Positions 4,452 to 60,008 of a stretch of 64,000 bases of DNA are shown one piece after another (position 1 is the first letter of the stretch; each line of letters opens with the position of its first letter). Position numbers and translations under genes: made by a program. A model generated the notes under the pieces. The model did no database searches and was not told where the DNA came from. It was given only the letters and a program-made list of their open reading frames with translations. Source of the stretch: Siphonodentalium dalli (lineage: Eukaryota; Mollusca; Scaphopoda; Gadilida; Siphonodentaliidae); the NCBI GenBank assembly GCA_032622095.1, contig CP136066.1, positions 103,561,319 to 103,625,318 on the forward strand. The letters run 5' to 3'.

Positions 4452-5119
4452 GTATATAATATGCATGTTAAAAATGTTTTTTCGACTGGCTATGTTATCA
4501 GACAGTCGTCGTTATCTGACTAACTTGTGGAAAATAACTTCAATAATAAATTCAACTTTGGTCTGCCCACTTATAGAATAAGTCAGATTCCTATGAGAAC
4601 TTGTGAATTAAAGATTTAATCGGTCTCAAAGGTGTTACATATATATAGGCACATGTATGTACACAAGAAGATATATATATACATACTTACGTTCAATTAT
4701 GTATACACATCTACGGATTCATGTTTTTTTTTATACTGATAGTATTTGACATTATAGTACATATACAGTAATGAAAAATTGTTCACCGAGAGTTCACAAG
4801 CTATTGTAAATAATATTTTTTACATAAATGAAGATTGGCATAAATTGACAAACATGAATATTAAATTAGCATTATATACAATGGAACCACAATGTGTGGT
4901 ACACAGCTACCTGAAAATAAGACATTTATAATACAATAATTTGACTCCTCATATATTCTCTATACCTGTATTTATAAGGTGATGATAATAAATAATTGAA
5001 TTGATGTTGGGTCTATTCAATCTGCTAAATCGGCTCACTGAGAAATGCACTTTACCGACCTAGCCACAGAGGGTCATCCCCTCCAGGTCACGGTGATATT
5101 TTCTTGATATATTCATCTA
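4452..5119. other. AT-rich 3' flank of the TMEM179-like gene
   Basis: No further coding signal. On the minus strand this lies immediately downstream of the terminal exon and should contain its 3' UTR. I could not identify a convincing polyadenylation signal; an ATTAAA-like word on the minus strand near 4615-4620 is a weak candidate. Confidence 0.4.
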
Positions 5120-22798: not shown

Positions 22799-22804
22799 AA
22801 GAGA
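22799..22804. repeat. Target-site duplication AAGAGA, left copy
   Basis: Six bases immediately outside the left terminus of the palindromic element, identical to 33059-33064. A 6-bp duplication is what Polinton/Maverick integrases make. Confidence 0.75.
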
Positions 22805-22960
22805 AGAAGAATAGGGGTCTCCTTACCGTCACATCTAAAAATAGAATCTTTGGGGTCTAAAATTGGTTGTGGGTGTCTCGTTCGCGTCACATCTAAAAAT
22901 AGAATCTTTGGGGTCTAAAATTGGTTGTACTAAAATATTCCCAAAATATCAAAAACCCAA
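22805..22960 (+). repeat. Element terminus, left, with 54-bp tandem repeat
   Basis: ACATCTAAAAATAGAATC...TTGGTTGT occurs twice (about 22832 and 22886). The same motif recurs near the palindrome centre (about 27669), in the same direction within the arm. Confidence 0.85.
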
Positions 22961-23808
22961 AAATTATTTTTCCAAAAATTATTTTTTCCAAAAAATTTCA
23001 AAATCCCAAAAAATTTTAAAACCCCAAAATTTCAAAAAAGAAAAAAATTCAAAACCCTCAAAATTATTTCTCCAAAAAAAAAGTATAAATAAAAAATTTA
23101 TAACGAGTTTTCGGTTTCTGATAATCTCGATATTAAAATGTCGAATGTTAAATTATTTGCGTGTAATATCTTTCGTTAATTTTTTTTTGTTCAAATATTT
23201 TTCATGAAATTATTAATCGATGTTTAGAAATAGCTTTTATTGGACATTGTGACCATCGATATGAATGCATACATTCCAGTGTTTTATCGGACGCAGTTCA
23301 TATAATTGTCATACCTGAAAATAGACACTATTACTTTTACATAAATAATAAAGAGCGTTTATTCTTTACACTCTCTCTATCCCATATGACAGGTGTGTAT
23401 TATCGTGAATTATTGGAAGTTTTGAGATGTACTATGTTCAATCCCTAACGGTCGAAAATTGTAATGTTAAATTACAACCCTCCAGAATGAATTGTCATAT
23501 TCGCTGTACACGCAATCACACGCGACATTGGTGGTAACAATGTGTCTTTCACACCTTTGCTTTACCAAATGAATTATATTATTTCCCCGGTCACAGTTAT
23601 ATGCTATTCAGAAAACATATCGATTTAATGTCTGAACAAACGAGTTAGTATCAATTAAGGTTGATAAACTGTGTCATTCACACGATAATTAGTTAGCCAA
23701 AAACATGCATACGTCCAGGACACTCAATTATAGAAATTGCTTTGATGACATTGTTATAACAACATTACGTAATAACCAATTATCGCCCCACATTCATACT
23801 TACGCTTT
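22961..23808. other. Left arm, AT-rich non-coding
   Basis: Contains homopolymer-rich 'ttccaaaaaat' DNA, a TAATAAAGAGCG word at about 23346, and a motif (GTATTATCGTGAATTATTGG, about 23397) almost identical to the start of the zinc-finger gene at about 26901. Mirrored at 32055-32900. Confidence 0.5.
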
Positions 23809-24012
23809 GGACATTTTATCAGTTTATCACGTGATCACTAAATGTGGCAATCGGGTATCCTCCGATGCCTGCAATATATTATTTATAATAATTGGACTCA
23901 TTGATCTCACGTGAATAATACTCTTAGTTGTTCCAATAAAATAGTTATCAAATTCGATCACCAATAGATTTGACTGTGGAATGTAATGACCTTTAACTTA
24001 TTTATCGATCTA
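23809..24012 (+). repeat. ~204-bp direct repeat, left arm copy 1
   Basis: GGACATTTTATCAG...CACGTGATCAC...TTATCGATCTA, repeated at 25313-25515 with few changes. It contains TATCACGTGATCA. The shared ORF tail read from both copies reflects repeated DNA, not a proven gene. Confidence 0.85.
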
Positions 24013-24134
24013 AAGGGACACTCATTATGAATGAATGTTAACAATACAAACGCACGAATGAAGAGCGTTGAACATATACGAAATTACTACACGAATGAAT
24101 TGAACCTTGAAATTTATATTTCACATCTTACCAA

Positions 24135-24400
24135 CAACAGCTACAGACATAATCATAGTATTATACTGTCTTGCATGTACACACGCTATGACATCATTAA
24201 AGGTGGACAATCCACTCAAGGTGTGGCAACAGCTACAGACATAATCATAGTATTATACTGTCTTGCATGTACACACGCTACGACATCATTAAAGGTGGAC
24301 AATCCACTCAAGGTGTGGCAACAGATACGGACATAGGCATAGTGTTATACAGTCTTCTATGTACCCACGCTATGACACCATTAACGTACATTGGATGTTA
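24135..24400 (+). repeat. 92-bp tandem repeat, ~3 copies
   Basis: CAACAG(C/A)TAC(A/G)G starts at 24135, 24227 and 24319. Longer blocks containing this unit and ATGAATGTTAACAATACAA recur at about 25683-25905 and 25906-26275. Confidence 0.85.
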
Positions 24401-24429
24401 GGTATATGACTCTTGAGTATGCACCAATC

Positions 24430-25036
24430 AATGAGCAAATGAGCAAAAAACTGAGCAAATGAGCAAAAAATGAGCAAATGAGCAAGAAAATGAGCAAATG
24501 AGCAAGAAAATGAGCAAATGAGCAATAAAAATGAGCAAATGAGCATAAAAATGAGCAAATGAGCAAGAAAATGAGCAAATGAGCAATAAAAATGAGCAAA
24601 TGAGCATAAAAATGAGCAGATGAGCAAGAAAATGAGCAAATGAGCAAGAAAATGAGCAAATGAGCAATAAAAATGAGCAAATGAGCAAAAAAAATGAGCA
24701 AATGAGCAAGAAAATGAGCAAATGAGCAATAAAAATGAGCAAATGAGCAAATAAATGAGCAAATGAGCAATAAAAATGAGCAAATGAGCAAAAAAATGAG
24801 CAAATGAGCAAGAAAATGAGCAAATGAGCAATAAAAATGAGCAAATGAGCAAATAAATGAGCAAATGAGCAATAAAAATGAGCAAATGAGCAAAAAAATG
24901 AGCAAATGAGCAAGAAAATGAGCAAATGAGCAATAAAAATGAGCAAATGAGCAAATAAATGAGCAAATGAGCAAAACAATGAGCAATAAAATGAGCAAAT
25001 GAGCAATAAAAATGAGCAAATGAGCAAAAAAATGGG
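24430..25036 (-). repeat. GAGCAAAT minisatellite, left arm
   Basis: More than 25 units of ATGAGCAAATGAGCAANAAA. Because the complementary strand lacks stops in all three frames, it yields spurious Leu/Ile/Cys/Ser/Phe-rich ORFs of about 200-270 codons on the minus strand. Confidence 0.95.
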
Positions 25037-25312
25037 CATACCTGTATGCAGGCCTACCAGTGGATGAATAGTCTGTCGGAGAAGTACTGTGTAGACAGGT
25101 CTTGCCGGTAAGAGAGTCAGACGAGAAGTGAAGGCTCGGCTATTAAAACATAGTAATGCGATAGCGAACATCAAACGAGTCTGCGCACGCATATCTGTCA
25201 AAAGGATACAATAGCAGTCATTGGTCAATTTATCCCCGGTGTCATCTCAGTACCCAATCGGGACGAAGCCGAAGGTCAACTCATTTTTTTTGCTCATTAT
25301 AGTACGTCACTT

Positions 25313-25515
25313 GGACATTTTATCAGTTTATCACGTGATCACTAAATGTGGCAATCGGGTATCCACCGATGCCTGCAATTTATTATTTATAATAATTGGA
25401 CTCATTGATCTCACGTAAATAATACTCTTAGTTGTTCCAATAAAATAGTTATCAAATTCGATCACCAATAGATTTGACTGTGGAATATAATGACCTTTAA
25501 CTTATTTATCGATCT
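25313..25515 (+). repeat. ~204-bp direct repeat, left arm copy 2
   Basis: Second copy of 23809-24012, with CCACCGATGCC in place of CCTCCGATGCC. Confidence 0.85.
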
Positions 25516-26322
25516 ATGTTAAGACATGGTCTTAACAAAAAACTTGACCATAACAAAAATTACCTTACATTTATGCATGAATCTAATTAGACCATACGTA
25601 AATATTGTCAGCTTATCGTCTGATGAGCAAATCCGATGTTTATCAAAAATAGTACAACTTCCAGTTGGTAATTACTCTTACGAATGAAGAGCGTTGAACA
25701 TATACGAAATTACTACACGAATGAACTGAAATTTATATTTTCACATCTTACCAACAACAGATACAGACATAGTCATAGTGTTATACTATCTTACATGTAC
25801 CCATGCTATGACATCATTCGAAGGGGCAATACACTCAAGGAGTTAAAGTGACACGAAACAAGGGACGTGATGTAATATTGGTGTTTGAATCTTAAAGGAA
25901 CACAAGACACTCTAAAGGGACACTCATTATGAATGAATGTTAACAATACAAGCGCACGAATGAAGAGCGTTGAACATATACAAAATTACTACATGAATGA
26001 ATTGAACCTTGAAATTTATATTTCACATCTTACCAACAACAGCTACAGGCATTATCATAGGGTTATACTGTCTTGCATATACACACGCTATGACATCATT
26101 AAAGGCGGACAATCCACTCACGGTGTGACAACAGATACAGACATAGGCATAGTGTTATACAGTCTTCTATGTACCAATGCTATGACATAATTAAAGGGGG
26201 ATAATACACGCACGGTGTGGAATGTTAAAGTGACACGCGGTAAGGGACGTGATGTAATATTGGTGAAACCCCCTCCCCACTTATAGATATATAACGAAGA
26301 CGAGAATAACATGTTGATGAAG

Positions 26323-26328
26323 TTTATT
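26323..26328 (-). terminator. Polyadenylation signal AATAAA, left-arm zinc-finger gene
   Basis: AATAAA on the minus strand 5 nt after the stop codon of the 26334-26903 gene; mirrored at 29546-29551. A very short 3' UTR, as in compact viral genomes. Confidence 0.6.
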
Positions 26329-26333
26329 GAAAT

Positions 26334-26903
26334 TTAATCATTGTCTGAATCTTCGACCGTTAGATTTACTTCTAAGAGTTTCTTGAATTTTCTCATCGCT
26401 TCATCTGCAGCCCATTCATTATTATATCCGTGTTTGGTCAGTTTGGCCATTTTCTTCATGATCATGGTATGTATGCGTGATGTTTTCAATCGATACTGGT
26501 ATTCTATTAATCGTCTATAACTTTTGAGAAACAGAGCAAACTCTGTGTCGATGGTATCCTCTTTTCCCGACATGCTCTCATCTCCCGAAATGCTCTCTTC
26601 TTCTTTCACATCATTGGTGACGCGTTTCATCATACTTTTGAATGTGTCCATCTCGTTGACACATCGCGCAGCTTTCTTAAGACCGAATACCGTTCTACTA
26701 CCGACGCCATTACCATCTTCTGAATCTGATAGCGTTCCACGTTCATCTTCATCTGAATCTAGAACCGCTTCGTCAGATTCATCGGTATCTTCTCCGAAGA
26801 GAGTTGGTTTTGTCTCAGACATAACTCCGTGTTTAATCTGTTTATGTCTTTGTAGATTGTAGTTCGTCGATAAAATAATGCCACATAAATCACACCCGTG
26901 CAT
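26334..26903 (-). CDS. C2H2 zinc-finger/acidic protein of Polinton-like element, left arm
   Basis: 189 codons. Residues 4-25 form one C2H2 finger (C4-x2-C7-x12-H20-x4-H25). Residues about 37-70 are strongly acidic (DTDESDEAVLDSDEDE). Residues about 110-189 are charged and helical, with HTMIMKKMAKLTKHGYNNEW and a final acidic tail. The arrangement (N-terminal finger, acidic middle, helical C-terminus) resembles a family of C2H2 proteins I remember from invertebrate Polinton-like insertions; function there is unknown, with DNA or RNA binding likely from the finger. It is a copy of 28971-29540 with the same predicted protein. A TATAAG box lies about 30 nt upstream of the start, and AATAAA follows the stop. 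It overlaps the neighbouring 64-aa ORF by 14 nt. Confidence 0.75.
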   Translation of the reverse strand: MHGCDLCGIILSTNYNLQRHKQIKHGVMSETKPTLFGEDTDESDEAVLDSDEDERGTLSDSEDGNGVGSRTVFGLKKAARCVNEMDTFKSMMKRVTNDVKEEESISGDESMSGKEDTIDTEFALFLKSYRRLIEYQYRLKTSRIHTMIMKKMAKLTKHGYNNEWAADEAMRKFKKLLEVNLTVEDSDND

Positions 26904-27084
26904 TATCGCGAATTATTGGAAGAACCATCACTCTTATAAGTAGCGATAAAAAGAGAGAATAAGGTGTGGTATACAACCGTCGCTCTAAGAGTACGTTCGT
27001 CCCGGTGCTAGGGTATAGATATTTGACCGCCGGTGATTCAATTAATGCCAATTTATCAGTATGGTACTCTATGTATTCATTCAT
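26890..27084 (-). CDS. 64-aa ORF of Polinton-like element, left arm
   Basis: Identical to the right-arm ORF 28790-28984. It begins MNEYIEYHTDKLALIE and has one hydrophobic stretch near the C-terminus (LFLSLLIRVMVLPII), so it might be membrane-associated. It overlaps the zinc-finger start by 14 nt, and the TATA box of that gene lies inside its coding region, so it could also be a chance ORF. No family recognised. Confidence 0.4.
   Translation of the reverse strand: MNEYIEYHTDKLALIESPAVKYLYPSTGTNVLLERRLYTTPYSLFLSLLIRVMVLPIIRDNARV
26933..26938 (-). promoter_or_regulatory. TATA-like box (TATAAG) of left-arm zinc-finger gene
   Basis: CTTATA on the plus strand; TATAAGAG in gene sense, 35 nt before the start codon. 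The same word precedes the first ORF of the cassette at 27478-27483. Confidence 0.5.
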
Positions 27085-27142
27085 GATTTGGCTAATCGTA
27101 TGACACTGATCTTTTCATTTTCTTCTTATTATTAGACAAACC

Positions 27143-27415
27143 TCAATCAGACACTCTCTTGTTGGTTTGTTTGGACGCTTTACGTGTGTTTGTCAACTTA
27201 TTTGCTGCAACTTCAGCCTTAGCCATTTCAATCGCTTGAGCGATGGGTGTCACCACGTTAATAAGTGGTTTTAGAACGTCTTCTTCACTATCACTAGTTT
27301 TAGTTCTGTCAATAAAGTATCGACCCTGATTATCTGGTATTAACTTCCCATCAACCATATCTCTGAAATGTTTTCTCCACATTTCAAGATCTGCTGGAAT
27401 ATATGGGATCGACAT
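27143..27415 (-). CDS. Small basic-tail protein of Polinton-like element, left arm (truncated)
   Basis: 90 codons. Begins MSIPYIPADLEMWRKHFRDM, then GK..PD..GRYFI, an acidic patch (DSEED) and INVVTPIAQAIEMAKAEVAA. Aromatic/Pro N-termini and a VTP.AQA.E.AK helix are features I remember from small proteins in Polinton/adintovirus-like elements, but no function is known to me. Compared with the right-arm copy (28459-28782) it has Asp instead of Val at residue 22 and a TGA in place of GGA at codon 91. That stop removes the last 17 residues, which include a basic NNKKKMKR nuclear-signal-like tail. The left copy is therefore a likely loss-of-function allele. Confidence 0.65.
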   Translation of the reverse strand: MSIPYIPADLEMWRKHFRDMVDGKLIPDNQGRYFIDRTKTSDSEEDVLKPLINVVTPIAQAIEMAKAEVAANKLTNTRKASKQTNKRVSD

Positions 27416-27477
27416 GTTTCTTCAAAATGTACAAGTCACTCTTTTTTCTGCATTTTATTTTAGAAAGTTTATCGCCT

Positions 27478-27483
27478 CTTATA
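27478..27483 (-). promoter_or_regulatory. TATA-like box (TATAAG) upstream of left-arm first ORF
   Basis: TATAAGAG in gene sense, 68 nt before the ATG at 27415. Mirrored at 28391-28396. Confidence 0.45.
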
Positions 27484-27558
27484 AAAATCGATTATTGGCC
27501 ATGAATGCCAAATGCACCATGATAGTTATCGATGTCAATAATGCGTTTCGTTGAGATC

Positions 27559-27720
27559 TTGATTGAGTATGCACCAATCAATGAGCAAATAAATGAGCAA
27601 GCAGGATGTTATGTCGCTTGGTGGCGGAGGTAGCATCACCAAATTACCCTCGGGGGACCTCATTCTGCCATCTAAAAATAGAATCTTTGGGTCTAAAATT
27701 GGTTGTACTAAAATATTCCC
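27559..27720 (+). repeat. Internal copy of the element's terminal motif, left of centre
   Basis: CATCTAAAAATAGAATC...TTGTACTAAAATATTCCC repeats the sequence of the outer end (22830-22950) in the same direction. It is preceded by GAGTATGCACCAATCAATG, which also precedes the GAGCAAAT array at 24417. The mirrored copy lies at about 28150-28315. Confidence 0.85.
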
Positions 27721-27855
27721 AAAAACCCAAAACTTAAAAAATTTCAAAAAACTTAAAAAATTTCAAAAAATTTCAAAAACTTCAAAAATTTTCAAAAATT
27801 TCAAAAACTTCAAAAATTTCAAAAAACTTCAAAAATTTCAAAAACTTCAAAAATA
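27721..27855. repeat. TTTCAAAAA/CTTCAAAAA simple repeat
   Basis: Alternating AATTTCAAAAA and ACTTCAAAAA units. The mirror lies at 28020-28145. Lys/Phe/Asn-rich ORFs over it are not genes. Confidence 0.9.
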
Positions 27856-27859
27856 AGAC

Positions 27860-28018
27860 CCCTGCGGCGGCGGCGGCATTGCGGTATTTTACTGCGGCGC
27901 AGCCGCCGGCGGCGGACCCCGGCGGCGGCGGCGGAGGCACCGCCGCCGCAGTAAAATACCGGCGGCACCGCCGCCGCAGTAAAATACCGCAATGCCGCCG
28001 CCGCCGCCGCCAGGGTCT
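27860..28018. repeat. GC-rich nested hairpin at the palindrome centre
   Basis: CGG/CCG-rich DNA. The outer stem pairs GCATTGCGGTATTTTACTGC (27877-27896) with its complement around 27975-27994. Within the roughly 70-bp spacer are further CCGCCGG/CCGGCGG inverted repeats and a partial extra copy of the stem (GCAGTAAAATACCGGCGG, 27947-27964), so the centre is not symmetric. It resembles a branched terminal hairpin fused to its partner. Confidence 0.85.
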
Positions 28019-28390
28019 TATTTTTGAAGTTTTTGAAATTTTTGAAGTTTTTTGAAATTTTTGAAGTTTTTGAAATTTTTGAAAATTTTTGAAGTTTTTG
28101 AAATTTTTTGAAATTTTTGAAGTTTTTTGAAATTTTTGAAGTTTTGGGTTTTTGGGAATATTTTAGTACAACCAATTTTAGACCCAAAGATTCTATTTTT
28201 AGATGGCAGAATGAGGTCCCCCGAGGGTAATTTGGTGATGCTACCTCCGCCACCAAGCGACATAACATCCTGCTTGCTCATTTATTTGCTCATTGATTGG
28301 TGCATACTCAATCAAGATCTCAACGAAACGCATTATTGACATCGATAACTATCATGGTGCATTTGGCATTCATGGCCAATAATCGATTTT

Positions 28391-28396
28391 TATAAG
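28391..28396 (+). promoter_or_regulatory. TATA-like box (TATAAG) upstream of right-arm first ORF
   Basis: TATAAGAGGCG, 68 nt before the ATG at 28459. It is present in both arms and echoed by TATAAGAG before the zinc-finger gene. Confidence 0.45.
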
Positions 28397-28458
28397 AGGC
28401 GATAAACTTTCTAAAATAAAATGCAGAAAAAAGAGTGACTTGTACATTTTGAAGAAAC

Positions 28459-28782
28459 ATGTCGATCCCATATATTCCAGCAGATCTTGAAATGTGGAGA
28501 AAACATTTCAGAGATATGGTTGTTGGGAAGTTAATACCAGATAATCAGGGTCGATACTTTATTGACAGAACTAAAACTAGTGATAGTGAAGAAGACGTTC
28601 TAAAACCACTTATTAACGTGGTGACACCCATCGCTCAAGCGATTGAAATGGCTAAGGCTGAAGTTGCAGCAAATAAGTTGACAAACACACGTAAAGCGTC
28701 CAAACAAACCAACAAGAGAGTGTCTGATGGAGGTTTGTCTAATAATAAGAAGAAAATGAAAAGATCAGTGTCATACGATTAG
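28459..28782 (+). CDS. Small basic-tail protein of Polinton-like element, right arm (full length)
   Basis: 107 codons; the intact version of the left-arm 27143-27415. The N-terminal part is rich in Pro and aromatics (YIPADLEMW). A predicted helix INVVTPIAQAIEMAKAEVAA lies at about residues 52-71. It is followed by a basic, Asn/Lys-rich C-terminus (residues about 78-104, including KKKMKR) that could bind nucleic acid or act as a nuclear signal. Residue 22 is Val here, Asp in the left arm. A separate TATA-like box precedes it. The next ORF starts 7 nt after its stop. Family assignment is from memory of similar small proteins beside Polinton-like genes and needs a profile search. Confidence 0.65.
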   Translation: MSIPYIPADLEMWRKHFRDMVVGKLIPDNQGRYFIDRTKTSDSEEDVLKPLINVVTPIAQAIEMAKAEVAANKLTNTRKASKQTNKRVSDGGLSNNKKKMKRSVSYD

Positions 28783-28789
28783 CCAAATC

Positions 28790-28984
28790 ATGAATGAATA
28801 CATAGAGTACCATACTGATAAATTGGCATTAATTGAATCACCGGCGGTCAAATATCTATACCCTAGCACCGGGACGAACGTACTCTTAGAGCGACGGTTG
28901 TATACCACACCTTATTCTCTCTTTTTATCGCTACTTATAAGAGTGATGGTTCTTCCAATAATTCGCGATAATGCACGGGTGTGA
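28790..28984 (+). CDS. 64-aa ORF of Polinton-like element, right arm
   Basis: Same product as 26890-27084. It sits in a different frame from both neighbours, with a C-terminal hydrophobic segment. It contains the TATA box of the next gene. Real translation is uncertain. Confidence 0.4.
   Translation: MNEYIEYHTDKLALIESPAVKYLYPSTGTNVLLERRLYTTPYSLFLSLLIRVMVLPIIRDNARV
28936..28941 (+). promoter_or_regulatory. TATA-like box (TATAAG) of right-arm zinc-finger gene
   Basis: TATAAGAGTG, 35 nt before the ATG at 28971. It is followed by CTTCCAATAATTCGCGATAA, a block that recurs at about 32446 near the element's outer part. Confidence 0.5.
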
Positions 28985-29540
28985 TTTATGTGGCATTATT
29001 TTATCGACGAACTACAATCTACAAAGACATAAACAGATTAAACACGGAGTTATGTCTGAGACAAAACCAACTCTCTTCGGAGAAGATACCGATGAATCTG
29101 ACGAAGCGGTTCTAGATTCAGATGAAGATGAACGTGGAACGCTATCAGATTCAGAAGATGGTAATGGCGTCGGTAGTAGAACGGTATTCGGTCTTAAGAA
29201 AGCTGCGCGATGTGTCAACGAGATGGACACATTCAAAAGTATGATGAAACGCGTCACCAATGATGTGAAAGAAGAAGAGAGCATTTCGGGAGATGAGAGC
29301 ATGTCGGGAAAAGAGGATACCATCGACACAGAGTTTGCTCTGTTTCTCAAAAGTTATAGACGATTAATAGAATACCAGTATCGATTGAAAACATCACGCA
29401 TACATACCATGATCATGAAGAAAATGGCCAAACTGACCAAACACGGATATAATAATGAATGGGCTGCAGATGAAGCGATGAGAAAATTCAAGAAACTCTT
29501 AGAAGTAAATCTAACGGTCGAAGATTCAGACAATGATTAA
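28971..29540 (+). CDS. C2H2 zinc-finger/acidic protein of Polinton-like element, right arm
   Basis: 189 codons with the same predicted protein as the left-arm gene: one C2H2 finger (C4, C7, H20, H25), an acidic Asp/Glu/Ser middle, and a helical charged C-terminus. The predicted proteins of the two arms are identical while the neighbouring first ORF differs, which may mean purifying selection, gene conversion or simply recency. A TATA-like box lies at 28936 and AATAAA at 29546. Probably a regulatory or packaging accessory of the element; this is inference. Confidence 0.75.
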   Translation: MHGCDLCGIILSTNYNLQRHKQIKHGVMSETKPTLFGEDTDESDEAVLDSDEDERGTLSDSEDGNGVGSRTVFGLKKAARCVNEMDTFKSMMKRVTNDVKEEESISGDESMSGKEDTIDTEFALFLKSYRRLIEYQYRLKTSRIHTMIMKKMAKLTKHGYNNEWAADEAMRKFKKLLEVNLTVEDSDND

Positions 29541-29545
29541 ATTTC

Positions 29546-29551
29546 AATAAA
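29546..29551 (+). terminator. Polyadenylation signal AATAAA, right-arm zinc-finger gene
   Basis: Five nucleotides after the TAA stop at 29538-29540. Confidence 0.6.
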
Positions 29552-30357
29552 CTTCATCAACATGTTATTCTCGTCTTCGTTATATATCTATAAGTGGGGA
29601 GGGGGTTTCACCAATATTACATCACGTCCCTTACCGCGTGTCACTTTAACATTCCACACCGTGCGTGTATTATCCCCCTTTAATTATGTCATAGCATTGG
29701 TACATAGAAGACTGTATAACACTATGCCTATGTCTGTATCTGTTGTCACACCGTGAGTGGATTGTCCGCCTTTAATGATGTCATAGCGTGTGTATATGCA
29801 AGACAGTATAACCCTATGATAATGCCTGTAGCTGTTGTTGGTAAGATGTGAAATATAAATTTCAAGGTTCAATTCATTCATGTAGTAATTTTGTATATGT
29901 TCAACGCTCTTCATTCGTGCGCTTGTATTGTTAACATTCATTCATAATGAGTGTCCCTTTAGAGTGTCTTGTGTTCCTTTAAGATTCAAACACCAATATT
30001 ACATCACGTCCCTTGTTTCGTGTCACTTTAACTCCTTGAGTGTATTGCCCCTTCGAATGATGTCATAGCATGGGTACATGTAAGATAGTATAACACTATG
30101 ACTATGTCTGTATCTGTTGTTGGTAAGATGTGAAAATATAAATTTCAGTTCATTCGTGTAGTAATTTCGTATATGTTCAACGCTCTTCATTCGTAAGAGT
30201 AATTACCAACTGGAAGTTGTACTATTTTTGATAAACATCGGATTTGCTCATCAGACGATAAGCTGACAATATTTACGTATGGTCTAATTAGATTCATGCA
30301 TAAATGTAAGGTAATTTTTGTTATGGTCAAGTTTTTTGTTAAGACCATGTCTTAACA

Positions 30358-30561
30358 TAGATCGATAAATAAGTTAAAGGTCATTATATTCCACAGTCAA
30401 ATCTATTGGTGATCGAATTTGATAACTATTTTATTGGAACAACTAAGAGTATTATTTACGTGAGATCAATGAGTCCAATTATTATAAATAATAAATTGCA
30501 GGCATCGGTGGATACCCGATTGCCACATTTAGTGATCACGTGATAAACTGATAAAATGTCC
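30358..30561 (-). repeat. ~204-bp direct repeat, right arm (mirror of 25313-25515)
   Basis: Reverse complement of the left-arm block, followed outward by the other copy at about 31850-32053. Confidence 0.85.
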
Positions 30562-30840
30562 AAGTGACGTACTATAATGAGCAAAAAAAATGAGTTGACC
30601 TTCGGCTTCGTCCCGATTGGGTACTGAGATGACACCGGGGATAAATTGACCAATGACTGCTATTGTATCCTTTTGACAGATATGCGTGCGCAGACTCGTT
30701 TGATGTTCGCTATCGCATTACTATGTTTTAATAGCCGAGCCTTCACTTCTCGTCTGACTCTCTTACCGGCAAGACCTGTCTACACAGTACTTCTCCGACA
30801 GACTATTCATCCACTGGTAGGCCTGCATACAGGTATGCCC

Positions 30841-31431
30841 ATTTTTTTGCTCATTTGCTCATTTTTATTGCTCATTTGCTCATTTTATTGCTCATTGTTT
30901 TGCTCATTTGCTCATTTATTTGCTCATTTGCTCATTTTTATTGCTCATTTGCTCATTTTCTTGCTCATTTGCTCATTTTTTTGCTCATTTGCTCATTTTT
31001 ATTGCTCATTTGCTCATTTATTTGCTCATTTGCTCATTTTTATTGCTCATTTGCTCATTTTCTTGCTCATTTGCTCATTTTTTTGCTCATTTGCTCATTT
31101 TTATTGCTCATTTGCTCATTTATTTGCTCATTTGCTCATTTTTATTGCTCATTTGCTCATTTTCTTGCTCATTTGCTCATTTATTTGCTCATTTGCTCAT
31201 TTTTATTGCTCATTTGCTCATTTGCTCATTTTCTTGCTCATCTGCTCATTTTTATGCTCATTTGCTCATTTTTATTGCTCATTTGCTCATTTTCTTGCTC
31301 ATTTGCTCATTTTTATGCTCATTTGCTCATTTTTATTGCTCATTTGCTCATTTTCTTGCTCATTTGCTCATTTTCTTGCTCATTTGCTCATTTTTTGCTC
31401 ATTTGCTCAGTTTTTTGCTCATTTGCTCATT
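30841..31431 (+). repeat. GAGCAAAT minisatellite, right arm
   Basis: Mirror of 24430-25036, but with unit-level differences around 31170-31240 (some units missing or rearranged), so the arms have diverged here. The plus-strand ORFs of 190-281 codons are repeat artefacts. Confidence 0.95.
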
Positions 31432-31849
31432 GATTGGTGCATACTCAAGAGTCATATACCTAACATCCAATGTACGTTAATGGTGTCATAGCGTGGGTAC
31501 ATAGAAGACTGTATAACACTATGCCTATGTCCGTATCTGTTGCCACACCTTGAGTGGATTGTCCACCTTTAATGATGTCATAGCGTGTGTACATGCAAGA
31601 CAGTATAATACTATGATTATGTCTGTAGCTGTTGCCACACCTTGAGTGGATTGTCCACCTTTAATGATGTCATAGCGTGTGTACATGCAAGACAGTATAA
31701 TACTATGATTATGTCTGTAGCTGTTGTTGGTAAGATGTGAAATATAAATTTCAAGGTTCAATTCATTCTTGTAGTAATTTCGTATATGTTCAACGCTCTT
31801 CATTCGTGCGTTTGTATTGTTAACATTCATTCATAATGAGTGTCCCTTT

Positions 31850-32053
31850 AGATCGATAAATAAGTTAAAGGTCATTACATTCCACAGTCAAATCTATTGG
31901 TGATCGAATTTGATAACTATTTTATTGGAACAACTAAGAGTATTATTCACGTGAGATCAATGAGTCCAATTATTATAAATAATATATTGCAGGCATCGGA
32001 GGATACCCGATTGCCACATTTAGTGATCACGTGATAAACTGATAAAATGTCCA
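31850..32053 (-). repeat. ~204-bp direct repeat, right arm outer copy
   Basis: Mirror of 23809-24012. Confidence 0.85.
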
Positions 32054-32904
32054 AAGCGTAAGTATGAATGTGGGGCGATAATTGGTTATTACGTAATGTT
32101 GTTATAACAATGTCATCAAAGCAATTTCTATAATTGAGTGTCCTGGACGTATGCATGTTTTTGGCTAACTAATTATCGTGTGAATGACACAGTTTATCAA
32201 CCTTAATTGATACTAACTCGTTTGTTCAGACATTAAATCGATATGTTTTCTGAATAGCATATAACTGTGACCGGGGAAATAATATAATTCATTTGGTAAA
32301 GCAAAGGTGTGAAAGACACATTGTTACCACCAATGTCGCGTGTGATTGCGTGTACAGCGAATATGACAATTCATTCTGGAGGGTTGTAATTTCACATTAC
32401 AATTTTCGACCGTTAGGGATTGAACATAGTACATCTCAAAACTTCCAATAATTCACGATAATACACACCTGTCATATGGGATAGAGAGAGTGTAAAGAAT
32501 AAACGCTCTTTATTATTTATGTAAAAGTAATAGTGTCTATTTTCAGGTATGACAATTATATGAACTGCGTCCGATAAAACACTGGAATGTATGCATTCAT
32601 ATCGATGGTCACAATGTCCAATAAAAGCTATTTCTAAACATCGATTAATAATTTCATGAAAAATATTTGAACAAAAAAAAAATAACGAAAGATATTACAC
32701 GCAAATAATTTAACATTCGACATTTTAATATCGAGATTATCAGAAACCGAAAACTCGTTATAAATTTTTTATTTATACTTTTTTTTTGGAGAAATAATTT
32801 TGAGGGTTTTGAATTTTTTTCCTTTTTTGAAATTTTGGGGTTTTAAATTTTTTTGGGATTTTGAAATTTTTTGGAAAAAATAATTTTTGGAAAAAATAAT
32901 TTTT

Positions 32905-33058
32905 GGGTTTTTGATATTTTGGGAATATTTTAGTACAACCAATTTTAGACCCCAAAGATTCTATTTTTAGATGTGACGCGAACGAGACACCCACAACCAA
33001 TTTTAGACCCCAAAGATTCTATTTTTAGATGTGACGGTAAGGAGACCCCTATTCTTCT
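32905..33058 (-). repeat. Element terminus, right
   Basis: Reverse complement of 22805-22960, including the duplicated CTAAAAATAGAATC motif and the final CCCCTATTCTTCT. Confidence 0.85.
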
Positions 33059-33064
33059 AAGAGA
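33059..33064. repeat. Target-site duplication AAGAGA, right copy
   Basis: Immediately follows the right terminus; identical to 22799-22804. Confidence 0.75.
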
Positions 33065-33213: not shown

Positions 33214-35488
33214 GGTCCGAATCGGCTTATCTGGTTTAGACTAGGTTTTATTCTAGACCAGGTTTTACTCTAGTTTAAACTAGGTTTAAGTAGGAGTATG
33301 GTTTTACTGTAGTAAAACTAGGTTTTATGGGAGTAAAACTGGGTTTTTAGTGTAGTTAAATCCAGTTTTGTGATAAACTCAGTTTTAGTTTGTGGAATTC
33401 GATCTCAAATAAAACTAGGTTTTATTGACGTGATAAAGTTATGGTAATATTACTAATTGTTTGTGGTGAATTGGCTATATAATCATCAGTATAAGCTTCT
33501 GTATATATGATTTATACGTACCATACGTCTCGTCTCGAAAATATACCTTTAAATATACTTTGAAAAAACATCAAAGTTAAACCACCCTACCCCAGGTTTT
33601 ACTAAAACCTAGTTTTGTGGGTTTAATTATTCGGTCGATATTTTTCGCCCAGTATTGATGTTATTTCTTCGCGTATATGGGAGTGTTTATTTTGAATTGG
33701 GGGAGGCGTTTATGCTTGAGCGTTTGTCACTCAATGTTCATGCAGGAGAGTCTTAGTGGAATTCGGGGAGGCGATGTCGGTATACTTATGAGATAAATTC
33801 TAACAAAATATGTGCCAGTGTGATGGATGATTTCTTGCTATATATGTTTGTTTGCAATTCGCTCGTTCGGATGTCGCTTTGCCGAGCATGGAGGGATCGG
33901 ACGGATCAGTTTGACACGTTAGACACGAACATGACTTTTGAAGCTGATTCCTTATTCACAAAAAGGTCTCTTGCGGTCAATTTGACGCATGGGTTGGTGG
34001 CCCGCCCAAATACCCATCAGAGACACCCCAGCCCTCACCCGGGGGAGGGTAACCACCACCCTGAGGTGGAATGGAGTATGGGCCATTTTGGAGAACTGTA
34101 AGGATTTCGGCCAATTTGATGGTATGGGTGGGTGGTCCGCCCCAAATAACCGATAGAAACACCCCACCCCTCACATCCGGGGGGGGGGGTGGGGTGAACA
34201 TGGGATATGGACAATTTTCGAGACCGGTAATGATTTCTGCCAATTTGACGGCATGGATGGATAGCCCGCTCAAATGTCCCATAGAAACAGCCCACCCCTC
34301 AACCCTGGGGGAACCACCCCAGGAGGTAAAAATGGGGTATTGACCATTTTCGAGAACGGTAAGGATTTTGGTCAATTTGACGTCAGGAGTGGGTAGCCCG
34401 CTCCAACTATACCCCCTAGAAGCAACCTCACCCGGGGGTACCAGTACCACCCCGAGGGGGGGAATGGGGTATGGACCATTTTCGAGAACGGTGGGTGGCA
34501 CACCCAAATGTCCCCCTAGAAACACCCCAACCCGCACCCGGTCCATACCCTATTTTCACCCGCTCGGGTAGAACCACCCGCGGTGAGGGTGGGGGTGTTT
34601 CTATGCACTATATTTGAGGGCGGGCCGCCCACCAATGCCGTCATATTGGCCGAAATCCTTACCGTTCTCGATAACGGTCCATACCCCATTCCGACACCCG
34701 GGTGAGGGTGGTGTGTTTCTATGGGGTATTTGGGGCGGGCCACCTACACATGCATGCCGTAATATTGACCGACAGAGGCATGTTTTTTTGCGAATAAGGC
34801 AAAAAATGATCTATAACCAATTTTCACCCATGAGGGTGGTACCCTCCAGGGATGAGGGTAGGGTGTTTCTAGGGGATATTTGGAGCGGGCCACACACCCT
34901 GTCGTCAAATTGGCAGAAATCCTTACCGTTCTCGAACATCGTCCGGATTTGAGGGGTGGGTGTTTATGGGGGTTATTTGAGGTACCCTTCCCCGGGGTGA
35001 GGGCTGGGGTGTTTCTATTCGGTATGTGGGCGTACCCCATTTCCACCTCCTCGGGTGGCACCCCCGGGTGAGGGGTGGGTGGGGGGGGGGGGGTTATGGT
35101 GTATTTTGATCATGTCCACCCACTCCTGCTGCCAAATTAAGTAGCCTAAATCCTTACCGTTCTCGAAAATGGTCCATACCCCAGTTCTTCCGGGGTGAGG
35201 GGTGATGTTTTTTGGGCGGGCCACCCATTCATGCCGTCAAATTCGCCGAAATCCTTCCCGTTCTCGAAAATGGTCCATACCCCATTTTCACCCGTCCGGA
35301 TGGTACCCCCGGGGATGGATGGTGGTGTTTCTATGGGGTATTTGTGGCGGGCCCCCACCCATGCCCTCAAGAGATATTTTTGAGTTCCGAAAGTCATGTT
35401 CGTCCATGATATTAGATAATATCTAACCGCTATACAACAGACCGTGCATTCGTCGTGATTTCTCAAAGCGCACGGGTTATTCGCCTGA
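33214..35488. mobile_element. GC-rich foldback element, copy 1
   Basis: Starts GGTCCGAATCGGC followed by about 200 bp of AAACTAGGTTTTA-type subterminal repeats, then unique DNA, then about 12 degenerate units of roughly 115-125 bp (phrase CCGTTCTCGAAAATGGTCC, with GGGTGG/CCACCC blocks). The unit direction flips near 34545, so the array is itself an inverted repeat. The far end (beyond 35488) lacks the matching terminus. 57914-60008 is an inverted copy. All ORFs over the array are Gly/Pro-rich shadows. Confidence 0.85.
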
Positions 35489-49012: not shown

Positions 49013-49905
49013 TTGTTTCCAATGTTTTTTGTGCCGAATGACCCCAAAATGACTCGTTTCCCATTTACATGTCAATGGTAACATTCATGACAAATTTCAT
49101 GATGATCCGACCAAAGATACGACATGTAGCCTGTGTCAAAGGATTTAGTCATACAAAGGGTAAAATCCAAGATGGCCATGTTGGATGCCATCTTGTTTCG
49201 TGACTACGCGCCCACATTTTTTCGTGTTAACATTGCTTAATAGTTGAGGGATATAATATGGAAGAACATAATTGGGTGAAGTTAAGTCCTGTGGTGTGGG
49301 GTGTAGGGGTACCCTGTCAGCTTCCAGAAAATTATATTTGTTTTTTTCATTGCCGTCACGTGACATTTTGATCTCCGGTGATGTCATCAATGACAAAATC
49401 ATAAATGTTTTTCTTTCACTGGATAGAGTATTCCAATACCTACAAATTGGCACATCACATGTTAAAATCCAATCACTTATATGGGATACCGTTTCCCCCA
49501 CCCCATCATAATCGGAAAATGTAGCTCAACTTTGCGAAGAAGTTAAATTTTTGTGATGAAAAATAAATGGAATGATGAATTGAATTTTGAAATCAAAGAT
49601 GGCCGCTGGCGTCATTGCCGAATGACCACAAAATGACTCGTTCCCATCTACATGTCAATGTTATCATCGATGCAAAATTTCATGATTATCCGACAAAGGT
49701 ATGACATGTAGCCAGCGCCGAAGGATTTAGTCATACAAAGAGTAAAATCCAAGATGGCTGTCGGCGGCCATGATTTATGGCCGAATGAACCCAAAATGAT
49801 TCATTCCCATCTACATGTCAATGTCAACAGCCATGACAAATTTCATAATGATCCGAGCAAAGGTATGACCTGTAGCCCGTGTCGAAGGATTTAGTCATGC
49901 AAAGA
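49013..49905 (+). repeat. Degenerate ~150-bp repeats (CCGAATGA...GATCCGA type)
   Basis: 'ccgaatgacc(c/a)caaaatgactcg', 'catctacatgtcaatg', 'atgat(g/t)atccgac' and 'ggatttagtcata(c)aaag' recur at about 49030-49190, 49615-49760 and 49780-49905. The middle (49200-49600) is different. Confidence 0.75.
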
Positions 49906-51215
49906 GATTTAGGAACATACCCATTTTCTATGATGGACCCTTAAAATTGTGAACCCCAAATTTGAGCCCGTGCAGTGTAAACCTAAGTGAACTTTTCCCG
50001 GTCATGTCCAGATGCAGGACGGTCCAGATATGTCTCAATATCCATATTATATGCCCAGAATCCAAAGATATAGGCACATACCCATTTTTTATGATTGCCC
50101 TTAAAATGGTGAACCCAAAATTTGAGCCCGTGCAGTGTAAACCTAAACCAACTATACATCAGTCATGTCCAGATGCAGGACGGTCCAGATATGTCCCACC
50201 ATCCATATTATATGCCAGAATCCAAAGGTATAGGCACATAACAATTTTCTATGATGGACCCTTAAAATGGTGAACCTCAAATTTGAGCCCATGCAGTTTA
50301 AACCTAAGTAAACTATACATGAGTCATGTCCAGATGCAGTACGGTCCAGGTATGTCCCAACATCCATATCATATGCCAGAATCCAAAGATATAGGCACAT
50401 AACAATTTTCTACGAAGGGCCCTTCAAATTGTGAACCCCAAATTTGAGCCGTGCAGTTTAAACCTAAGTAAACTATTCCCGGTCATGTCCAGATGCAGGA
50501 CGGTCCAGATATGTCTCAATATCCATATTATATGCCCAGAATCCAAAGATATAGGCACATACCCATTTTTTATGATTGCCCTTAAAATGGTGAACCCAAA
50601 ATTTGAGCCCGTGCAGTGTAAACCTAAACCAACTATACCTCAGTCATGTCCAGATGCAGGACGGTCCAGATATGTCCCACCATCCATATTATATGCCAGA
50701 ATCCAAAGGTATAGGCACATAACAATTTTCTATGACGGACCCTTAAAATGGTGAACCTCAAATTTGAGCCCATGCAGTTTAAACCTAAGTAAACTATACA
50801 TGAGTCATGTCCAGATGCAGTACGGTCCAGGTATGTCCCAACATCCATATCATATGCCAGAATCCAAAGATATAGGCACATAACAATTTTCTACGAAGGG
50901 CCCTTCAAATTGTGAACCCCAAATTGAGCCGGTGCAGTTTAAGCCTAAGTAAACTATTCATGAGTCATGTCCAAATGCAGGACGGTCCAGATATGTCCCA
51001 ACATCCATATCATATGCCAGAATCCAAAGATATAGGCACATAACAATTTTCTATGATGGGCCCTTCAAATTGTGAACCCCAAATTTGAGCCGGTGCAGTT
51101 TAAACCTAAGTAAACTATTCATGAGTCATGTCCAGATACAGGACGGTCCAGATATGTCCCAACATCCATATTATATGCCATAATCCAAAGATATAGGCAC
51201 ATAAAAAATTTCTAT
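49906..51215 (+). repeat. ~160-bp satellite with 481-bp higher-order unit
   Basis: Eight monomers with ACGGTCCAGATATGTCCCA at about 50010, 50170, 50340, 50490, 50660, 50820, 50983 and 51145. 49960-50430 and 50431-50910 are near-identical blocks of three monomers, so a trimer was duplicated as a unit. ORFs over it repeat in the same way and are not genes. Confidence 0.9.
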
Positions 51216-51760
51216 GATGGGCAGGAGTGGTAGTAAAAAATTTGCAGAAAGGTATGCCGTTTTTTTGCATCTGGCATTTTCGGGGACCCACCACCCCCAA
51301 ACCTGCAAATTTTTTATTTTTTAGTCCCAATTTTTCCACACCCACCCACCAAATTGCACTAAAATTGGTCTAAAATCGCATAAAACTCTACTGATATCAC
51401 TCATATGACTGAGAATGATCTCATTTAGTATATAAATAAACACTGTCGGTTACCCTTTTAGGTTTGGACGTTTCAAGAAGGTGGCGCCCAGTGGACAGGA
51501 TAAACGGAAAGTTAATATATTGTCTTCAAGCATCAATTAACGACATCTTTCAGTGATACATCTTTAAACAGTTATATAGGAATTTGTATGCCCAACACCT
51601 ACGTAACACGCCTTTCGCATGACAGGCATGCGAAGTGTTGTATTTGGCGTGTCAAGTCGTCATAAATTTTCGAAATTTTATCGAGGCGGCGAAATGTTCG
51701 CTTTTTCGTAATTTTTGGGCATGGGCTCATGGATCCGCAAATTTATGTATTGTCCTGGGC

Positions 51761-57676: not shown

Positions 57677-60008
57677 GGTCCGAATCGGCATCTCCAGTTT
57701 AGACCTGGTTTAAACTACCAGTTTAAACTGGGTTTTAGTAGTAAAACCAAGTTTTTCTCCACCGCTGGGACGAAATAGATTTGGTCGATTGCGTCACCTA
57801 TGGTCCACACTTGTCCAATTGCAAGGATAGGAGGCGTGGTCTGTCTGTTTATTATCTTTACTTGTCAATGCATTGTCGGTCACGCGACCTTTTGTCGCTA
57901 TCTAATCTTCTAGTCAGGCGAATAACCCGTGCGCTTTGAGAAATAACGACGAAAGCACGGTCTGTTGAATAGCGGTTAGATATTATCTAATATCATGGAC
58001 GAACATGACTTTCGGAACTCAAACATATCTCTTGAGGGCATGGGTGGGGGCCCGCCACAAATACCCCATAGAAACACCACCATCCCTCCCCCGGAAGTAC
58101 CACCCGGACGGGTGAAAATGGGGTATGGACCATTTTCGAGAACGGGAAGGATTTCGGCGAATTTGACGGCATGAATCGGTGGCCCGCCCAAAATACCCGA
58201 TAGAAACATCGCCCCTCACCCCGGGAGAACTGGGGTATGGTAAGGATTTAGGCTAATTAATTTGGCAGCAGGAGTGGGTGGCCCGATCAAAATACACCAT
58301 AGAACCCCCCACCACCCATCCCTCACCCGGGGGGAGGGGGTGCCACCGAGGTGGAAATGGGGTACGCCCAAATACCGAATAGAAACACCCCAGCCCTCAA
58401 CCCCGGGGAAGGGTACCTCAAATAACCCCCGTAAACACCCCACCCCTCACATCCGGACTATGTTCGAGAACGATAAGGATTTCGGCCAATTTGACGACAG
58501 GGGTGTGTGGCCCGCTCCAATATCCCCTAGAAACACCCTCATCCCTGGAGGATACCACCCTGATGGGTGAAAATGGGGTATGGAGCATTTTATTCCTTAT
58601 TCGCAAAAACATGCCTCTGTCGGTAAATATTACGGCATGTATAGGTGGCCCGTCCCAAATACCACATAGAAACACAGTCAAACACCCCACCATCACCCGG
58701 GTGTCAGAAAGCGGTATGGACCGTTATCGAGACCGGTAAGGATTTCGGTCAATATGACGGCATTGGTGGGCCATCAAATATAGTTCATAGAAACACCCCC
58801 ACCCTCACCGCGGGTATGGACCCGGGGTGCGGGTTGGGGGTATTTCTAGGGGGGGGCACTTGGGGTGTGACAACCACCGTTCTCGAAAATAGTCCATACC
58901 CCATTTTCACCCAGGGTTGAGGGGTGGGCTGTTTTCTATGGGAAATTTGAGCGGGCCATCCATCCATGCCGTCAAATCGGCCATAAATCCTTACCGGTCT
59001 CGAAAATGGCCCATATCCCATGTCCACCCCCGGATGTGAGGGGTGGGGTGTTTCTATGGGTTATTTGGGGCGGGCCACCCACCCAAACCATCAAATTGGC
59101 CGAAATCCTTACAGTTCTCCAAAATGGTCCATACTCCATTCCCCCTCAGGGTGGTCGTTACCCTCCCCGGTGAGGCACTGGGGGCTGGGGTGTCTCTGCT
59201 GGGTATTTAGGCGGGCCACCAACCCAAGCGTCAAATTGACAGAAAGAGACCTTTTGTGAATAAGGAATCAGTTTCAAAAGTTATGTTCGTGTCTAACGTG
59301 TCAAACTGATCAGTCCGATCCACCCATGCTCTCAGTCGCCAAAGCGACATCCGAACGAGCGAATTGCAAACAAACATATATAGCAAGAAATCATCCATCA
59401 CACTGGCACATATTTTGTTAGAATTTATCTCATAAGTAACGACATCGCCTCCCCGAATTCCACTAAGACTCTCCTGCATGTACATTGAGTGACAAACGCC
59501 CAAGCACAAACGCCTCCTCCAATTCAAAATAAACACTCCCATATACGTGAAGAAACAACATCAATACTGGGCGAAAAAAATCGACCGAATAATTAAACCC
59601 ACAAAACTAGATTTTAGTAAAACCTGGGGTAGGGTGGTTTAACTTTGATGTTTTTTCCAAGTATATTTAATGGTATATTTTTGAGACGAGAAGTATGGTA
59701 CCTATAAATCATATATACATAAGCTTATACTGATGATTATATAGCCAATTCACCACAAATAATTAGTAATATTACCATAACTTTATCACGTCAATAAAAC
59801 CTAGTTTCAATTGAGATCGAATTCCACAAACTTAAACTGAGTTTATCACGAAACTGGGTTTAACTACACTAAAACCCAGTTTTACTCCCATAAACCTAGT
59901 TTAACTACAGTAAAACCAAGTTTAAATCCTACTTAAACCTAGTTTAAACTGGAGTTAAACCTGGTCTAGAATAAAACCTAGTCTAAACCAGAGATGCCGA
60001 TTCGGACC
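57677..60008. mobile_element. GC-rich foldback element, copy 2 (complete termini)
   Basis: GGTCCGAATCGGCATCTC at the left and GAGATGCCGATTCGGACC at the right, each followed inward by AAACC(T/A)AG-type repeats. 57914-60008 is the reverse complement of 33214-35488, with the same ~120-bp unit array. It has both TIRs, so it is the better reference for the family. No transposase visible. Confidence 0.85.

Follow-up and report, generated by a model that had tools for sequence, protein, structure and literature searches.

Within a window of 64,000 nucleotides of the genome of the scaphopod mollusc Siphonodentalium dalli (GenBank assembly GCA_032622095.1, contig CP136066.1, positions 103,561,319 to 103,625,318 of the forward strand; "window" denotes this whole stretch, numbered from its first nucleotide), we analyzed a palindrome of 10,254 bp at positions 22805-33058 with ties to the Polinton (Maverick) elements. 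In the alignment of its two halves of 5,127 bp each, 5,090 of 5,140 columns are identical; the 50 differing columns comprise 25 in a central GC-rich loop, 12 that correspond to a gap of one tandem unit, and 13 that are scattered. Outside the loop, the arms differ by 14 events, 10 substitutions and 4 indels, and an arm pair of 3,190 bp is 100% complementary (a rounded value). The element ends in 5'-AGAAGAATAG...CTATTCTTCT-3', and an exact direct repeat of 6 bp, AAGAGA, abuts both ends. A 6-bp target-site duplication defines the Polinton/Maverick family, and AG...CT termini are typical of Polintons. The preliminary description of this locus, which reported a palindrome of about 10.25 kb with reverse-complement arms of about 5.1 kb, AAGAGA flanks and AG...CT ends, is borne out in each of these points, with the limits of 22799..33064 being exact.

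From the outside to the centre, each arm consists of the AGAAGAATAG end, a terminal repeat of about 1 kb, an internally duplicated region, a tandem array, two open reading frames (ORFs), ORF189 and ORF107, an inner copy of subterminal sequence, and the GC-rich loop (Table 1). Both ORFs read outward, away from the centre of the palindrome. The duplication inside the arm is apparent from cross-matches, in which arm positions 4865-4969 and 70-217 match identical stretches. Folded as DNA, the loop forms a stem with a branched head at -92.1 kcal/mol (z -12.4 relative to shuffled sequences). A central module similar to this loop was retrieved for 12 other palindromes, from 18 loci submitted, the other 6 of which gave no marker pair (see below).

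The profile matches of ORF189 are weak, to a zinc finger in Pfam (E 0.003) and to a PHROG of unknown function (E 0.032); as the sole query against IMG/VR, it found no relatives there. ORF107 has no match in Pfam or PHROGs and, as the sole query, no relatives in the protein collection or the PDB; its link to Polintons was obtained solely from a helper element of the same genome that is described below. The ORF list of the window element includes neither an ORF of PolB size nor a packaging ATPase, and no RVE integrase ORF was found either in this list or in the Pfam search. Because it is devoid of PolB, the window element is classified as a non-autonomous Polinton derivative and not as a Polinton proper. 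Among the full-length matches in the genome, which were the only ones counted, the frame is intact in 32 of 34 copies of ORF107 and 24 of 26 copies of ORF189. Most of the nucleotide differences between these copies and the window copy alter the amino acid, suggesting that the copies are young rather than demonstrably under selection; the intactness of the frames may reflect this youth.

Table 1. Features of the palindromic element (window coordinates)
Feature	Position	Strand	Basis
Target-site duplication AAGAGA, left copy	22799..22804	.	Sequence
Left arm of palindrome	22805..27860	+	Repeat search and half alignment
Outer 1 kb of left arm, matches terminal inverted repeat of PolB/integrase Polinton	22805..23804	+	86-94% identity, two long matches
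ATGAGCAA-type tandem array, left arm	24430..25038	+	Tandem-repeat search
ORF189, left-arm copy	26334..26903	-	ORF list
ORF107, left-arm copy, shortened by a stop to 90 aa	27143..27415	-	Half alignment, ORF list
Subterminal repeat, inner copy, oriented like outer copy	27669..27774	+	Cross-matches
Central GC-rich loop, T-shaped fold	27861..28012	.	Half alignment and DNA folding
Right arm of palindrome	28013..33058	-	Repeat search and half alignment
Mirror of inner subterminal copy	28100..28205 (approximate limits, by eye)	-	Sequence
ORF107, homologue of Polinton gene (MSITYIPADIEKWRKHFRDM..., end of helper piece L048)	28459..28782	+	ORF list, helper comparison
ORF189, single weak N-terminal C2H2 zinc finger	28971..29540	+	zf-C2H2 E 0.003, below Pfam cut-off
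ATGAGCAA-type tandem array, right arm	30836..31431	-	Tandem-repeat search
Mirror copy of helper-type terminal repeat	32059..33058	-	Half alignment and helper match
Target-site duplication AAGAGA, right copy	33059..33064	.	Sequence

The genome assembly comprises 2.23 Gb in nine contigs. A search with a 1,161-bp arm query yielded 1,769 candidates, of which the best 40 were scored; all of these match at 99-100% and represent 29 loci, which are the closest relatives of the query and not a random sample. Judging by their inner sides, a head-to-head junction of two arms is present at 23 of the 29 loci; at 4 others (L030, L032, L039 and L045), the palindrome has lost an internal part of one arm; L043 holds two pieces of arm with like orientation, and at L007/L029 a lone arm continues into different sequence. 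Matching loci are present on all nine contigs. An inner-arm marker occurs 171 + 173 times genome-wide (control, 0 + 0), and 82 of the 100 marker places listed form 41 convergent pairs, with 0.25-1.4 kb between the partners. The window palindrome is a member of an amplified family and not the single freak copy that the preliminary description took it for; the survey for further palindromes with 6-bp duplications that was proposed there brought up nine.

In these nine and in the window, that is, in all ten palindromes whose ends were read, the 6-bp duplication is perfect and different each time: AAGAGA, GGAAGC, AGGGAC, CATAAA, ATGGTC, CTTTTC, CAAATG, CCCATG, TCTACC (read by eye) and AACAGC. The terminal sequence is AGAAGAATAG in the window element and in 8 of the 9 others, and AGAAGATAG in the palindrome designated C2. 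Given that an identical centre is found at different sites, each with its own 6-bp duplication outside both arms, the palindromic form preceded insertion. One of the ten, L019/L020/L028, is a three-arm copy that consists of a left arm, a right arm devoid of most of its outer part, and a further right arm, with one CAAATG duplication around the whole.

The ends of the palindromes are shared with larger elements. The terminal pattern AGAAGAATAGNNNYCTCSTTNNNNY occurs 500 times in forward and 487 times in reverse orientation in the genome (0 + 0 for a reversed-pattern control); the 100 terminal places listed, all on contig C1, resolve into 43 pairs and 14 unpaired ends. In all 43 pairs, the 25-bp end tags are identical at both ends, with 38 different tags represented, compared to the 3% of pairs expected by random drawing. 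By length, the pairs include 6 shorter than 7.2 kb, 23 of 7.8-10.6 kb, one of 13.5 kb, 11 of 15.6-17.4 kb, and two of 26 and 30 kb. The end tags look combinatorial, with 11 variants of the first variable stretch and 18 of the last 5-nt stretch, and the second 58-bp unit of the terminal repeat shows variants of the same kind as the tags, as if end units had been exchanged. At C1:159746518-159783981, six forward termini with one tag, spaced by 5.3-5.4 kb, are followed by one reverse terminus, forming a head-to-tail array of arm-like units; junction L068 of this array shows intervening sequence, so the units do not simply abut.

A search for PolB (PF03175) gave 1,596 candidates, of which the best 69 were scored, with 149 matches. 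The open frames among the scored matches are mostly of about 950 aa, with a second group of about 1,310-1,330 aa, and one stop was noted among the 149 matches; by frame size, there seem to be two groups of apparently young Polintons in this one genome. The listed part of contig C1 has 10 PolB places, 6 of which are enclosed by terminal pairs (five of 15.6-17.4 kb and one of 26 kb). One such element, C1:82679759-82696105, which we denote the helper, was read in two end pieces (L048/L049) and not as a whole. It has a 6-bp duplication, ATTCTC, PolB at C1:82690241-82691953, and terminal repeats of 1.2 kb that are 96% alike to each other and match the outer kilobase of the window arm at 86-94% in two long matches. 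Piece L048 encodes an integrase core (E 1.6e-14) with a chromodomain (8.1e-08) and, at its end, the start of an ORF107 homologue (MSITYIPADIEKWRKHFRDM...; 88% over 213 bp of DNA); a P-loop ATPase ORF of 218 aa in the helper matches AAA_22 (0.00019) and Pox_A32 (0.0028), both below the Pfam cut-offs, and so resembles packaging ATPases only weakly. The common terminal repeat and the ORF107 homologue in an element with PolB and integrase tie the palindromes to Polintons by descent and not by looks, and identify ORF107 of the window as a Polinton gene.

The marker pairs and the terminal pairs locate the same centres: in the five elements of contig C1 that have both, the midpoints agree within 60 bp. 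For a blind test, we took 601-bp midpoints of 14 of the 38 terminal pairs of contig C1 that have no marker pair. Six of these midpoints are palindromic (L062 only by virtue of 44-bp arms at the edges of the stretch) and eight are not; by size, the palindromic ones make up 6/6 at 7.8-10.6 kb, 0/5 in the 16-kb class and 0/3 of the others. For all 23 pairs of contig C1 that were tested, the 14 palindromic ones include 13/13 at 7.8-10.6 kb (7 of these 13 having been first noticed via palindrome-linked searches), 1/7 in the 16-kb class and 0/3 of the others. One kind of GC-rich module is found at centres despite different arm break points (partly by eye); the arms end where those of the window element do, at arm position 2440 in L055, L059 and L062, or, in L052 and L056, within sequence that does not match the window arm. 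Two minor observations concern centres. Both flanks of L009/L010 are mirror copies of sequence like that beside the centres of L052 and L056 (by eye), so that this palindrome seemingly lies in the middle of another inverted repeat, and insertion of one palindrome into the centre of another may occur. The midpoint of a 6.0-kb element with the common ends (L058, C1:48411296-48411896) holds a coding-like stretch with a P-loop (by eye), and this element is perhaps a small non-palindromic derivative.

In three ordinary copies of about 16-17 kb (L063, and L054 and L064 read from the other side), a G-rich tract separates the PolB-side junction from the other half of the element, and in five ordinary elements this junction is no more than 0.5 kb from the midpoint; the motif GGGCGGGCGGGCGGG is of the G-quadruplex type. 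The element C1:95377025-95392671, which is flanked by the duplication TTTGTG, carries PolB in both arms, on both strands (E 2.1e-31), and a 1,001-bp stretch of one arm has its mirror image in the other at 99.9% identity, centred on the midpoint to within about a base. At its centre, the type of G-rich tract known from the ordinary copies is doubled back after the PolB-side junction. Thus, this element has one end of the parent on both sides and an internal fold, which is the configuration of a snap-back genome.

The two arms of one element usually resemble each other more closely than they resemble the arms of other elements, judging from two segments of the arm. For the inner 2.6 kb, both arms have their sister as nearest neighbour in 7 of the 8 elements in which both are covered, and in the eighth, designated C8a, arm L014 is slightly closer to L031 than to its sister; sisters are 0.04-0.34% apart (0.00 between two arms of the three-arm copy), compared to medians of 0.5-0.9% to all arms. 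For the outer 1.3 kb, a comparison from which the right end of C6b (534 bp) and the left end of C2 (not located) were left out, sister ends are 0.2-0.6% apart in 7 of 8 elements, with medians to other ends of 2.5-11% and the nearest foreign end as close as 0.55%; C2 is an outlier at 24-36%.

We consider it quite probable that these palindromes form a family of non-autonomous fold-back (snap-back) Polintons, in which replication doubles back at GC-rich tracts, giving palindromic products that are replicated and integrated in that form. The Polinton gene set includes a protein-primed PolB and an RVE integrase (PMC4028283). Under the proposed mechanism, protein-primed synthesis would enter from one end, stall at a GC- or G-rich tract, switch to the complementary strand and copy back to the starting end, giving a product with two complete ends. 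The ends start with the triplet repeat AGA AGA; triplet-repeat ends are typical of jump-back protein priming, as in adenovirus. The displaced single strand of a palindrome would then self-anneal, so that the arms pair and their differences are exposed to repair, which would explain both the alike arms and the identical end tags. Integrase and PolB would presumably be supplied in trans by the PolB-bearing Polintons of about 16 kb of the same genome, and the helper integrase would insert the palindrome, producing the 6-bp duplication. This scheme builds on demonstrated descent, common ends, a palindromic form that predates insertion, duplications at different sites and a PolB half folded at the tract; that the fold-back point is a stall-prone G-rich tract, with synthesis stalling there, is what we infer. 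The possibility that the fold-back point is a ready-made hairpin in the parent was rejected given that the tract of the ordinary copy, compared to shuffles, has a z of +6.7.

The interpretation of the window element in the preliminary description as an integrated head-to-head Polinton derivative is upheld by the ends, which recur in PolB-bearing elements of about 16 kb in this genome, by the terminal repeat of about 1 kb, which one of these elements, read in part and with an integrase, has in common with the window element, and by ORF107; its comparison with snap-back genomes gains support from the PolB palindrome folded at a G-rich tract near the middle of ordinary copies. The arm is not simply half a Polinton: its tandem array, internal duplication and zinc-finger ORF were not found in the helper pieces that were read.

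Several observations weigh against the fold-back origin or limit its reach. In the helper pieces read, neither the CGG-type module nor the ORF189 of the window family was found. On the listed part of contig C1, 4 of the 10 PolB places fall outside the listed terminal pairs; one of these adjoins an unpaired end, and the other three have no listed end nearby. The PolB palindrome stands alone as the only convergent pair seen in the 100 junction places that were listed, from a total of 209, so that full-half snap-backs look rare, and the smaller palindromes look to be those that multiplied. None of 200 shuffles of the G-rich tract of an ordinary copy folds as poorly as the tract itself. The likeness of arms is not universal either: apart from the inner arm of C8a that is nearer to a foreign arm, one outer end of C7 is closer to C8a than to its sister, one end of C8a ties, and in the palindrome designated C1 (a label distinct from that of contig C1), in which the left end is duplicated and the sisters are 1.7% apart, one end is nearer to C5. 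Furthermore, gene conversion in inserted copies could be another cause of the similarity of the arms.

A more far-reaching proposal, to which we give about even credence, is that the palindromes are heritable defective-interfering genomes that would arise repeatedly at GC-rich tracts, keep the ends and a fragment of the parent, have their arms and tags equalised by folding in each cycle, and multiply as hyperparasites of Polintons. The palindromes retain the Polinton end in two copies along with a small remnant of Polinton genes, and 23 of the 43 pairs listed on contig C1 belong to the 7.8-10.6-kb class compared to 11 in the 15.6-17.4-kb class. We are more doubtful about a selected role, whereby the palindromes would act on the parent Polinton by interference or regulation, for example, through converging transcription that yields double-stranded RNA against it. 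The amplification of the family and the mostly intact reading frames agree with such a role, and snap-back genomes of adeno-associated virus (AAV) are reported to regulate rep and cap expression (PMC8235507); however, most nucleotide differences of the ORFs relative to the window copy are nonsynonymous, and, as noted, youth may account for the intactness.

It is improbable that the family represents classical foldback DNA transposons of the Galileo/FB type, which would move by cut-and-paste with a transposase of their own, their terminal repeats having grown to fill the element and being kept alike by gene conversion, and this explanation is already largely refuted. Inverted repeats do make up most of the window element, as in foldback transposons, and there are tandem arrays in the arms. 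Galileo belongs to the P superfamily and has long terminal inverted repeats like Foldback-like elements, great structural variety, and duplications of 7-8 bp in D. willistoni (PMC4168063), whereas the duplication is 6 bp in all 10 palindromes. Moreover, the ends and the 25-bp tags are those of PolB elements, the terminal repeat of 1 kb matches a PolB/integrase element, ORF107 is a Polinton gene, and a PolB-bearing palindrome exists. We know of no link between foldback transposons and PolB elements.

Equally improbable is that a single-arm or full-length Polinton was inserted first and each palindrome then formed in the chromosome, through inverted duplication in the course of repair or host replication. 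The asymmetric copies, the three-arm copy L019/L020/L028 and the array of termini at C1:159.75 Mb show that rearrangement occurs, but the same centre recurs at different sites, each time with a 6-bp duplication of its own outside both arms, and a one-arm copy was found at 1 of the 29 loci, these being the closest relatives of the query. An assembly or sequencing fold-over artefact is scarcely credible, and for the window palindrome in particular unlikely, because, although fold-back reads are a known long-read artefact (PMC12870357), this palindrome stops exactly at the 6-bp duplication with differing flanks, its arms differ, the structure recurs at other loci with other duplications, and matching loci are present on all nine contigs.

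Among known systems, the Polinton/Maverick elements (adintovirus-like proviruses) share with the window element the AG...CT ends, the 6-bp duplication, and the terminal repeat and ORF107 found in a PolB/RVE-integrase element. The window element differs in its palindromic structure throughout and in having no PolB, integrase or packaging ATPase ORF. Foldback transposons (Galileo; FB, Tetris) resemble the palindromes in their long inverted repeats and many structural variants. The symmetric defective genomes of adenovirus, a protein-primed virus (SYREC-type, left-end duplications), are palindromic, with the same end at either side, and occur in virus stocks, not as a genome-resident transposon family. 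The nearest in working are the 5' and 3' snap-back genomes of AAV, which are sub-genomic snap-back DNAs with one class carrying the rep side and one the capsid side (PMC8235507). The palindromes described here, in contrast, are a genome-resident, multi-copy family with target-site duplications, and the parent encodes PolB. The window element is also shorter, at 10.25 kb compared to the 15-20 kb given for Polintons (PMC4028283). Among the listed titles and abstract openings of open-licence papers, no description of palindromic Polintons was found.

Snap-back defective genomes are familiar from virus stocks; here, many genomic copies with their junctions are preserved alongside the parent, so that the origin, inheritance and competition of snap-backs with the parent become readable from sequence. 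The mode of replication of Polintons is largely deduced from their gene content, and the identical end tags together with the alike arms provide in-genome evidence on this process.

The window contains two further repeat structures. A second inverted repeat pair, at 33214-35488 and 57914-60008, is separated by 22-27 kb and contains GC-rich units, with pieces that are 78-99% complementary. A tandem array with a 161-bp unit in about eight copies is located at 49905-51222.

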